A stretch of 22,654 nucleotides of DNA from positions 1 through 22,654 of the IMG/VR virus record IMGVR_UViG_3300046472_000086. The stretch is one strand, 5' to 3'. The position numbers were made by a program, and so were the translations under genes. The stretch is from a virus. This document shows, one piece after another, positions 8,514-19,569 of this stretch (position 1 is its first letter; each line of letters opens with the position of its first letter). Below the pieces are notes generated by a model. The model did not search any database and had not been told where the DNA came from. It worked only from the letters and a program-made list of their open reading frames with translations.

Positions 8514-10418
8514 ATGGCATGGCTATCCCGCAAGCGCCTGGCCGAGCTTGAGGAACTTGAGAAGGCACGCAATGCCGCTCCAATGGGAGGCAAGGATGCT
8601 TCTCAACTGGTCAACCTCATGGTCAGGGCGAGCGGCAGGGATGTTGACCTGGACTTTAACGGGTCTCCGCTGCTACGCCCCGAGGAATGGCTTGACGCCT
8701 TCGGGCCGGGGCATCCTCTCGGGATCGAGCCGCTAGACCGCCCACGGCCTGATAGCGGCCTTCCTGACCCACGTCAGTACCAGTACCCGGTCAGTAACAA
8801 CCTCCGGTACTTCTCTGACCGCCTGGTCGGCTGGGATACCCTCAGGTCAACCTCCGAGACTCCGCTGTTCCGTGCTTGCATCGAAGTTAAGAAGCAGGAG
8901 CTTAGCACCCTTGACTGGGTTATCAGGGTAAGCCCCGAGGCTGCGGAGCAGCAGGCGAGGGAAGCAGGCACCTCTAAGGAGGACATCGAAGCCCGGCTTC
9001 GCGTGCAGTACAAGGACGAGATCAAGCGCTGCACCGATTTCTGGGAGAATCCCGACCGCCGGAACGGAAGGGACTTTCAGGAGTGGATTTCGATTGCCCT
9101 TGAGGAACAGCTTGTTTTCGACGCCATCGCAATCTACCCCCGGCGCACCTACGGCGGGGAACTGCTGGACCTGATGCTCATAGACGGATCGACTATCAAG
9201 CCGATCCTTGACGAGCAGGGCAGCCGGCCGGAACCGCCTTCCGTTGCCTACCAGCAAATTCTGTACGGTTTCCCCCGTGGCGAGTTTCAGGCTGACTATC
9301 TTACCGACCCGAAGACTGGCCAGCAGACGGTACCTGGCGGGCTACAGTCAACACAGCTAGTATACCGGCGTCGTGTTCCCCGGCTGCATAACCCTTACGG
9401 GTTCGGGCCGACAGAGCAGGCGCTGCTTGACGGGCTGCTTTACAACAAGCGGTTTGAGTGGATGCTCTCGGAGTACACGCAGGGCACGGCAGCACGAGGC
9501 TGGGTTAAGGTACCCGAGAATTCGCCTTTTAGCGCCCGGCAGATTCTTGAGATGGAGAGGCAGTACAATGACCGTTACGGCGGTCAGACTGCCGAAAGGT
9601 ACCGCCAGCAGTTCATGCCCCCCGGCTTTGAGCTTCAGGAAAACCACGCGATCGAGGAACGCTACAAGGCCGACTACGATCTTCACCTGATCAAGCTTGT
9701 GGCAATGCACTTCGGGCTGACTGTGACTGAGCTTGGCTTCACGGAACAGGGTGGCCTTGGTTCCAGCGGTTACCATGAGGGACAGCAGGATATCCAATTC
9801 CGTAAGGGCCTCCTGCCGGACACCCGGTGGTTCAGCAAGTTCCTTACCATGATAAGCCGCACGCAGCTTCAAATGTCGCCTGACCTTGAATTTGCCTTCC
9901 TCGGGATGGATGACGAGGATGAGGCGTCCGCTGATAGCGTAGATGAGAACCGGGTTAAGTCTGGCCGGATGACCATCAATGAAGCACGAGTCCGTGCGGG
10001 AATGCCGCCTGTCGGCGTACCTGAGGCGGATATGCTTCACGAGCAGACCGCCCGTGGCGTAGTGTTCCTTGACGGTGCGTCTAAGCTCGCACCAGCGGGG
10101 GTAATGATCGAGCCCGCCAGCGAGAAGGTCAACACCGACCCGGAAGGGCAGCCGGTGTCACCGACACAGCGACGCCCGGTCAAGTCCACTAGCCCCCAGG
10201 CGGGGGCTGCCGCTAAGGATATAGCGGATGAGATCAGGGCATACCGGAAGTGGGACAAGCGTAACCCCGGTGCAGCCCGTCCATTCAGGTTCGAGATGGT
10301 GACCGCAGACCTTGCTAAGGACTTGGCCCCGGACCTGATCGGCCAGGGAAACGTAGAGTTCGCTAAGGGTGATGCTGACCCAAAAGCGCCCTGGTCGCCC
10401 TATTCGAGTCTAGGATAG
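8514..10418 (+). CDS. Portal protein (zero-frame product)
   Basis: The protein has 634 residues. It forms the dodecameric channel at the capsid vertex through which DNA passes. Recognisable portal features include a mixed clip and wing region around TPLFRACIEVKKQELSTLDW (about 113-132), the stem/crown segment with HNPYGFGPTEQALL, and the late region KLVAMHFGLTVTELGF. The gene lies directly after the large terminase, as usual. After residue 622 the sequence C CCA AAA allows a -1 shift into a MuF domain; without the shift, translation ends ten residues after the slip codons. The normal product would therefore be portal alone and a minority product would be portal-MuF, about 782 residues. Confidence 0.9.
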   Translation: MAWLSRKRLAELEELEKARNAAPMGGKDASQLVNLMVRASGRDVDLDFNGSPLLRPEEWLDAFGPGHPLGIEPLDRPRPDSGLPDPRQYQYPVSNNLRYFSDRLVGWDTLRSTSETPLFRACIEVKKQELSTLDWVIRVSPEAAEQQAREAGTSKEDIEARLRVQYKDEIKRCTDFWENPDRRNGRDFQEWISIALEEQLVFDAIAIYPRRTYGGELLDLMLIDGSTIKPILDEQGSRPEPPSVAYQQILYGFPRGEFQADYLTDPKTGQQTVPGGLQSTQLVYRRRVPRLHNPYGFGPTEQALLDGLLYNKRFEWMLSEYTQGTAARGWVKVPENSPFSARQILEMERQYNDRYGGQTAERYRQQFMPPGFELQENHAIEERYKADYDLHLIKLVAMHFGLTVTELGFTEQGGLGSSGYHEGQQDIQFRKGLLPDTRWFSKFLTMISRTQLQMSPDLEFAFLGMDDEDEASADSVDENRVKSGRMTINEARVRAGMPPVGVPEADMLHEQTARGVVFLDGASKLAPAGVMIEPASEKVNTDPEGQPVSPTQRRPVKSTSPQAGAAAKDIADEIRAYRKWDKRNPGAARPFRFEMVTADLAKDLAPDLIGQGNVEFAKGDADPKAPWSPYSSLG

Positions 10419-10435
10419 CGGCAGCACTAGGCGAC
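10365..10435 (+). promoter_or_regulatory. Programmed -1 ribosomal frameshift signal in portal
   Basis: The slippery heptamer C CCA AAA lies at 10379-10385 in the portal reading frame (CCA at 10380, AAA at 10383), matching X-XXY-YYZ. It starts right after the last -1-frame stop (TGA 10376-10378). An SD-like AAGGG at 10365-10369 lies nine bases upstream. After an 8-base spacer, GTCGCC (10394-10399) can pair with GGCGAC (10430-10435), extendable by two pairs with one bulged base. All parts are placed as in known bacterial -1 sites such as dnaX. Confidence 0.75.
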
Positions 10436-10861
10436 AAGGACAAGCTCTGGCGAGTCCTGGTCAACCTGTGGGCACGAGCCTACGATCTGGGCGTAGAGGA
10501 TATTGCCGATCTCCTTGGCATCGCATCTGATAACCCGTTCGGGCTGACGACGCTACTCGAAGCTCTCGGCCCCGGCTGGGTGAACCAGATACTCTCAGTG
10601 TCTAAGCCGATAGCTAACAGGGCTCTGATGATCGCGGTAACCGAGGTATCGCGTGCGTACAACGCCGGGCGGGTGGCGATGTACCGGAAGGCGGGTATAA
10701 CTACCTTCCGCTGGGATACTACGAGCCCAGTGCCCTGTGCCCTGTGCATAGAAAACTCGGAAGCACCACCCCGGTTCTACGGTAACCCCTACCCGACAGG
10801 GGCTATCGACCCGCCACAGCACCCGTATTGCGAGTGCATCCTAGTAGGAGAGACAGAGTAA
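10379..10861 (+). CDS. MuF-like minor head domain, expressed as -1 frameshift extension of portal
   Basis: This frame is open from 10379 to TAA 10859-10861. It has no ATG, GTG or TTG before a GTG at 10580, yet protein-like sequence starts around 10400 (helix LWRVLVNLWARAYDLGVED). The C-terminal half is the MuF signature: VSRAYNAGRVAMYRKAG, then PVPCALCIENSE and PPQHPYCECILV with paired cysteines. MuF (SPP1 gp7-like) proteins sit near the portal inside the head and aid assembly or DNA ejection. The frame is -1 relative to portal and the slippery site lies at its extreme 5' end, so a portal-MuF fusion is the best reading. Internal initiation at GTG 10580 would give only a truncated 93-residue form. 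Confidence 0.75.
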   Translation, partial: PKSALVALFESRIAAALGDKDKLWRVLVNLWARAYDLGVEDIADLLGIASDNPFGLTTLLEALGPGWVNQILSVSKPIANRALMIAVTEVSRAYNAGRVAMYRKAGITTFRWDTTSPVPCALCIENSEAPPRFYGNPYPTGAIDPPQHPYCECILVGETE

Positions 10862-18922: not shown

Positions 18923-19315
18923 ATGCTTAAGCGCATCGAACTGGCAGATGGCCAGTGGGTTGACATCACCCCGGTCGAAGACCTCCGGGATTTCGACCGG
19001 AAGGCCCTTAACCGGGTTACCTCCATGAGGATCACTGATGACGGGCAGGCTATCGTCAGCGGTGACTACGAGGACAAGATCAGGGACGCCCTGCTTACCA
19101 GGGTCATTCAGGACTGGTCCTTCCCCGGCCTGCCGGTCCCGTCCAAGAACCCGTATGTTCCCGCCAAGGGAGACCAGCCCGAGAAGGCCGGAAGCCTGGA
19201 CCTCCTGACCATTCCTCAGGCACGGGAGCTTCGTTCCGTGGTGGATGAGCACATGAAGCTCATCCGTGATGGCGGCGGTCCTGGCGAGCGTGGCTCGGAC
19301 CCTACAACGGCCTAG
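18923..19315 (+). CDS. Tail assembly chaperone, zero-frame (G-like) product
   Basis: The protein has 130 residues; ATG 18923 follows GAGGGATCACGC. It begins MLKRIELADGQWVDITPVED, has a mixed alpha/beta core and a C-terminal helix (IPQARELRSVVDEHMKLIRD), then a flexible Gly/Pro-rich tail ending at TAG. Position between tail tube and tape measure, plus an overlapping -1 frame downstream with no start codon, is the standard G/GT arrangement. These proteins coat the tape measure before tube assembly and are absent from the virion. The fusion form would be about 215 residues. Confidence 0.8.
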   Translation: MLKRIELADGQWVDITPVEDLRDFDRKALNRVTSMRITDDGQAIVSGDYEDKIRDALLTRVIQDWSFPGLPVPSKNPYVPAKGDQPEKAGSLDLLTIPQARELRSVVDEHMKLIRDGGGPGERGSDPTTA

Positions 19316-19569
19316 TCCAGCTTAAGCGTTTCCTGGCTGGCGGTTCCTATGACCGCAACGCGGTTCCGTGGGAACAGTACCGTTATGCCCTTTTTGCTCA
19401 CCGTCTGGGATGGACACCTGACCAGGTGGACAACCTGACGATCCAGGCAGAGGGCTGGATACTGCCGATCCTGGCTGCCATAGATGATCAGCTAAGGACA
19501 AACCAGGAACGTGAGCAGGCAGACGCTGAGCGTCGGTCAAGGAAATTCGGAAGGCGCAGCCGGAACTAA
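19270..19569 (+). CDS. Tail assembly chaperone, -1 frameshift extension (T-like)
   Basis: The frame is open from 19270 to TAA 19567-19569 with no ATG, GTG or TTG before the conserved-looking part, which starts around GPYNGLVQLKRFLAGG and continues NAVPWEQYRYALFAHRLGW. It lies -1 relative to the 130-residue chaperone, so it should be made as a G-T fusion. No canonical X-XXY-YYZ heptamer is present in the window of overlap; a Pro slip at C CCT (19300-19303) is the best candidate. The end is charged and basic (ERRSRKFGRRSRN). The stop overlaps the next start as TAATG. Confidence 0.7.
   Translation, partial: WRRSWRAWLGPYNGLVQLKRFLAGGSYDRNAVPWEQYRYALFAHRLGWTPDQVDNLTIQAEGWILPILAAIDDQLRTNQEREQADAERRSRKFGRRSRN

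Follow-up and report, generated by a model that had tools for sequence, protein, structure and literature searches.

A predicted programmed -1 ribosomal frameshift at the portal-MuF junction of a phage and its mostly actinobacterial relatives

Portal and MuF frames in the window

The window, that is, the whole stretch of 22,654 nucleotides that was analysed, holds a portal gene whose 3' end overlaps an open frame for a MuF domain (Table 1). A sequence-only reading had placed this MuF-type frame at -1 to portal, with C CCA AAA exactly at its 5' limit, and the coordinates agree. The portal frame at the junction is GAT GCT GAC CCA AAA GCG CCC TGG TCG CCC TAT TCG AGT CTA GGA TAG, so that the heptamer stands in the correct X XXY YYZ register, and the -1 reading from it is CCC AAA AGC GCC CTG GTC GCC CTA TTC GAG, open as far as 10861. 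Because a TGA at 10376-10378 closes the -1 frame immediately 5' of the heptamer, the -1 ORF begins exactly there. The earlier statement that this frame has no usable start before 10580 is also correct, its first ATG, GTG or TTG being the GTG at 10580 (residue 68). An Rfam search at the predicted frameshift site gave no match. A second in-register heptamer, GGGAAAC (10346-10352), lies 33 nt upstream of C CCA AAA and has an early -1 stop; among the junctions listed, it occurs only in this phage and its near-copy L003.

Table 1. Features at the portal-MuF junction (positions in the window)
Feature	Position	Strand	Description	Evidence
Portal protein ORF, 0 frame	8514..10418	+	634 aa; product is the short form without MuF	phrog_2662 E 6e-57; PF04860 E 1e-5 (below the PF04860 cut-off)
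SD-like element AAGGGTGA	10365..10372	+	Internal to the portal gene, 5' of the heptamer	7th percentile for SD-like affinity among the control positions of the locus
Slippery heptamer C CCA AAA	10379..10385	+	-1 frame CCC AAA	Same seven bases in 70 of 72 in-register sites
MuF domain ORF, -1 frame	10379..10861	+	160 codons without a start of its own; predicted to be read only after a -1 slip	Stop-to-stop ORF, profiles, AlphaFold
Short tail of unshifted portal	10386..10418	+	10 codons and stop TAG	Sequence
Predicted downstream hairpin	10387..10433	+	Minimum-energy fold, -21 kcal/mol	z -1.44, modest

We identify the -1 ORF as MuF from its matches to PF04233 and phrog_2662 and from its C..C and HP.C.C motif. 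The PF04233 match has an E-value of 9e-4 and 20.3 bits, below the curated cut-off of 29.6; the same profile is matched by 30 of the 31 aligned family members, with a best E-value of 3e-12. The match to phrog_2662 (E 3e-11) is to a portal family with MuF as its C-terminal part, which recognizes both pieces, the portal ORF and the -1 ORF. In the AlphaFold model the -1 ORF folds confidently as a single domain (pLDDT 89, pTM 0.86), and its first helix already begins at residue 2, directly after the heptamer. Viral structure matches of this domain include head-morphogenesis and MuF-like proteins, with modest E-values; among solved structures, a sequence search gave a designed bundle only and Foldseek against the PDB nothing significant. 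MuF usually has a gene and a start of its own, but this describes its genomic context and does not define the domain; the missing start leaves the assignment intact.

The AAGGG that had been described as SD-like, nine bases upstream of the heptamer, was found at 10365-10369. Downstream, a stem of 10394-10399 with 10430-10435 had been proposed, and these segments are indeed complementary (GTCGCC with GGCGAC), but the minimum-energy fold of the region pairs the same bases differently. In energy, that fold ranks at the 2nd-3rd percentile of control positions from the same gene, and 20 of 200 shuffles are equally or more stable; with so modest an advantage over shuffles, the stem is the weakest signal element in this phage.

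Elsewhere in the window, 18923-19566 is a likely tail-assembly chaperone pair, in which an open -1 frame overlaps the end of ORF 18923-19315; it has no in-register X XXY YYZ heptamer. The C CCA AAA site lies at the 3' end of the portal gene and does not belong with the G/GT sites, which go by tail chaperones and a tape measure gene just downstream.

The junction in relatives

Relatives were collected by portal and portal-MuF searches of viral contigs and bacterial genomes (~280 loci), using patterns that did not contain the slippery site, and the junctions were placed with profiles for the portal core and MuF. In-register sites were found in 72 non-redundant loci, this phage included, 70 of them reading C CCA AAA and two G GGA AAA. 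A later set added 13 further in-register sites (12 CCCAAAA and one GGGAAAA), among them those of Arthrobacter phages Sonali and Mufasa8, of lake phages L258-L260 and of the -1 locus L272. The carriers are mostly phages and prophages of actinobacteria, and the bacterial genomes with prophage-like loci include Streptomyces, Kitasatospora, Actinocrispum (A. wychmicini, locus L147) and Amycolatopsis (A. vancoresmycina, locus L150). No isolated phage with a portal close to the one studied here was found, the nearest actinobacterial isolates being Arthrobacter phages at ~27% identity. Conservation of the heptamer and of the -1 frame had been proposed as a check, and the relatives pass it: the heptamer is kept across large protein divergence, and conservation of the MuF frame among relatives starts right after it.

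The frame of MuF relative to the site is variable. In 51 of the 72 loci MuF shares the portal frame, and in the other 21 it is at -1. Where it lies at -1, the 0 frame closes 7-32 codons past the site, with the exception of L020 (70 codons). Where it lies in the portal frame, the median distance from the site to the -1 stop is 7 codons, compared with a background median of 62.5 (mean percentile 0.18). The junctions of the cultured phages Sonali and Mufasa8 carry an in-register CCCAAAA with a -1 stop 9 codons on. As these fusions keep both the heptamer and the early -1 stop, a slip there should remove MuF. Slipping would add MuF in this phage and its -1 relatives, and the opposite outcome predicted for the 51 in-frame relatives had been missed. 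On the portal tree the -1 label needs at least four changes, with the heptamer kept, and the +1 label three, all forced by well-supported branches.

The +1 label belongs to a clade of six loci (L008, L009, L013, L085, L086 and L087) whose MuF is in the +1 frame and whose portal frame has CCC (or GGG) AAA AGT. Here the heptamer sequence is kept one base out of register, and a -1 slip gives no explanation; a +1 slip on AAA A is a possible candidate. The portal tail of this clade, of ~36 codons, resembles the predicted -1 product of its sister L006.

Affinity for SD-like pairing upstream and hairpins downstream are both enriched at the relatives' sites. Over the 72 sites, SD-like affinity has a mean percentile of 0.10 against control positions in the same genes, and the best early hairpin one of 0.16. 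The stems vary in sequence and keep their pairing (GCCAGGC/GCCTGGC, GCCCGG/CCGGGC, GGCCCC/GGGGCC, GCCTCC/GGAGGC), and among 22 sequences there are 12 double-change cells compared with 4.0 in shuffles, a number reached by 0 of 500, with p-values that ignore phylogeny. The 3' arms of many of these stems coincide with conserved W-P-G-W codons. We dropped the notion that stimulators are weaker in -1 than in in-frame architectures (mean fold percentile 0.37 vs 0.20), which would suit a small number of MuF domains in both; it fails in individual lineages, since L016 and L140 have strong stems.

Other portal-MuF lineages lack the site, and these, like the out-of-register +1 clade and the modest hairpin of this phage, speak against the frameshift explanation. 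L238-L248 form a separate lineage of in-frame fusions (portal core ~235 bits) with neither CCCAAAA nor GGGAAAA at the junction, and the site is also missing in L107, L116, L121, L142, L229, L267 and some others.

Several relatives show additional coding features around the junction. In L020 (1128-1347) the 70-codon unshifted tail carries CxxC...C...C, without a Pfam match, and this DNA has no stop in the -1 frame either, an apparent case of dual coding. Two in-frame portal-MuF ORFs have an extra C-terminal domain, similar to PI3/PI4 kinases in L006 (E 9e-5) and an ADP-ribosyltransferase in L018 (E 8e-21). A Nudix domain lies between portal and MuF in L250, L149 and L141, of the divergent lineage that includes Sonali and Mufasa8, and by eye also in L107, L108, L119, L126, L148 and L251; L132 and L141 have an apparent 2H-phosphoesterase-like stretch.

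Proposed mechanism and its alternatives

A programmed -1 ribosomal frameshift at C CCA AAA is the best explanation of this junction and very probably the correct one. The sequence-only reading had predicted such a shift joining portal to MuF, and its prediction is supported by the elements present in this phage and by the relatives, whose conservation makes frameshifting very likely. The two coding frames and the site can be read directly from the DNA, and from them we infer the slip itself. Ribosomes would translate the portal gene up to C CCA AAA and pause at the heptamer, where the upstream SD-like sequence, and probably the downstream hairpin too, would favour the pause, and the Pro and Lys tRNAs would re-pair one base back. 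Those that do not slip would add 10 more residues and stop, giving portal, and those that slip would read on through MuF, giving portal-MuF; where a relative has MuF in frame, this slip would yield a portal without MuF. According to one study in E. coli (PMC4066793), the V_VV.A_AA.R class, to which C_CC.A_AA.A belongs, ranks with the most efficient and shift-prone motifs, and C_CC.A_AA.G gave 54% frameshifting with a strong stimulator. Transcriptional slippage was rejected on general knowledge, four A's being too few.

MuF might instead be a separate gene of the ordinary kind, with translation beginning past the portal stop at a start that is internal or coupled, and with a heptamer that has no role. 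A distant group of relatives is organized in just this way: 45 loci have a separate MuF ORF, with a start codon within 30 nt of the portal stop in 44 of them, and most of the other -1 relatives have a GTG or ATG 39-99 nt past the heptamer, in some cases overlapping the portal stop. Relatives in which MuF has its own ATG had been named beforehand as a finding that would count against a frameshift; none of the 45 has an in-register CCCAAAA or GGGAAAA. Against a separate gene, six of the 21 -1 loci, this phage included, have no ATG, GTG or TTG within 100 nt of the heptamer, and a start at GTG 10580 would cost the confidently modelled domain at least its first three, N-terminal helices. Moreover, a conserved WPGW..D motif lies in the MuF frame upstream of nearly all the starts found in the relatives, and separate translation leaves unexplained both the heptamer and the early -1 stops of the in-frame fusions. 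We consider this alternative highly improbable.

The one-base offset could also be an error of sequencing or assembly, or the mark of a decayed gene, the true gene being the single portal-MuF ORF that is present in many relatives. The near-identical record L003 speaks against this, as it has the same site and the same offset and a MuF protein that is 98% identical. The two records differ at 12 bases in MuF. Read in the -1 frame, 8 of these codon changes are synonymous and 4 conservative, compared with 3 synonymous and 9 nonsynonymous for the 0 frame and 1 and 11, respectively, for the +1 frame. A frame that evolves as coding sequence at the same offset in a separate record excludes a one-base error, which the sequence-only reading had named among the findings that would refute it, and the -1 arrangement has arisen on the tree at least four separate times, in 21 non-redundant records and always at the same heptamer. 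An artefact is therefore extremely improbable.

Nor is there much to be said for a heptamer that is kept for something else, be it a Pro-Lys motif of the protein, a cleavage site or the binding of nucleic acid, with frameshifting incidental, an idea with next to no chance of being right: the portal frame does encode Pro-Lys at every in-register CCCAAAA site, but a protein motif would permit CCG AAG, the preferred codons of these genes, two loci swap CCC for GGG and lose the Pro while the heptamer stays slippery, and the early -1 stops, the SD-like element and the covarying stem are left unexplained. The genes of site-bearing relatives have a mean of 69% G+C, with CCA making up ~5% of Pro codons and AAA ~16% of Lys codons. 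At the site, by comparison, CCA is used in 56 of 57 cases (GGA in the remaining one) and AAA in 57 of 57. At invariant Pro columns elsewhere in these genes the top codon is CCG or CCC (49-80%), an invariant Lys column has AAG in 86%, and C CCA AAA is used by none of these ORFs' 59 other Pro-Lys pairs. Judging from conservation and codon statistics together, the heptamer is present beyond chance.

A programmed frameshift should give two products in either frame layout, a portal with a short tail and a portal-MuF, and the shared trait would then be the presence of both forms rather than the fusion. If MuF has moved between frames while the signal was kept, the slip would bring MuF in for some phages and take it away in others. 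Portal rings generally have 12 subunits. With a shift frequency f, a 12-mer would on average carry 12f MuF domains in the -1 architecture and 12(1-f) in the in-frame one, and f must be high in the latter if the same MuF copy number is wanted.

Known systems and implications for portal rings

The arrangement proposed here has its closest mechanistic counterpart in dnaX, with which it shares a heptamer, an upstream SD-like element, a downstream hairpin and two proteins with a common N terminus. Across bacteria, dnaX-type shifts can shorten or lengthen the product (PMC4066793), as the portal-MuF site would do across phages. The gene, heptamer and purpose are different, since the portal site concerns a phage head protein. 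Conserved -1 frameshifts in phage structural operons are represented by lambda G/GT and SPP1 17.5/17.5*, where the shift sets the ratio of short to extended protein (PMC6316719); G/GT is, however, a tail chaperone and no part of the portal, so that both the position and the proteins are others. SPP1 gp17.1/17.1* is alike in that frameshifting yields two forms of a virion ring or tube protein in a set ratio, and unlike in that the shift is +1, at CCC TAA, and the protein that of the tail tube.

The same two proteins occur in SPP1 as the gp6 portal and gp7 (MuF), which in contrast are encoded by separate genes and bind non-covalently; 17.1 and 17.5 are the only frameshifts listed in the paper on the SPP1 genome. 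That single-ORF portal-MuF fusions exist in some phages had been stated in the sequence-only reading, and they do, in Sonali and in Microbacterium clusters EA3, EA5, EA8 and EB. These fusions, which phrog_2662 represents, share the domain order of the phage studied here, but are annotated as one product only, whereas MuF of this phage is in the -1 frame. The Microbacterium fusions were reported in PMC7302621 without a portal frameshift. In full-text searches of open-licence literature, we found no description of a portal or portal-MuF frameshift.

Many single-ORF portal-MuF annotations, including those of the cultured Sonali and Mufasa8, probably miss a second product. In Sonali, if the slip occurs, the annotated 995-aa portal-MuF would be accompanied by a form of ~748 aa ending ...NPKSAYPSVLEG.

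Portal rings are normally regarded as homo-oligomers, and it is not obvious by what mechanism only one or two MuF proteins are placed per ring in SPP1-type phages. It is likely, as we infer from the two predicted products, that the frameshift sets a minority of portal-ring subunits carrying MuF on the capsid interior, in place of the separate, non-covalent MuF of SPP1-type phages. We lean towards the wider view that the signal is an old one in divergent, mostly actinobacterial phage portal lineages, giving mosaic rings with a set number of MuF domains, and that MuF moved between the -1 and 0 frames several times while the signal was kept. If true, MuF number would be under a simple genetic control, exerted by a conserved frameshift that ties MuF covalently to some of the portal subunits, and mosaic portal rings would be predicted in whole groups of actinobacterial phages. 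In phages whose MuF bears a toxin-like domain, how many subunits bear that domain would likewise be set by the slip.
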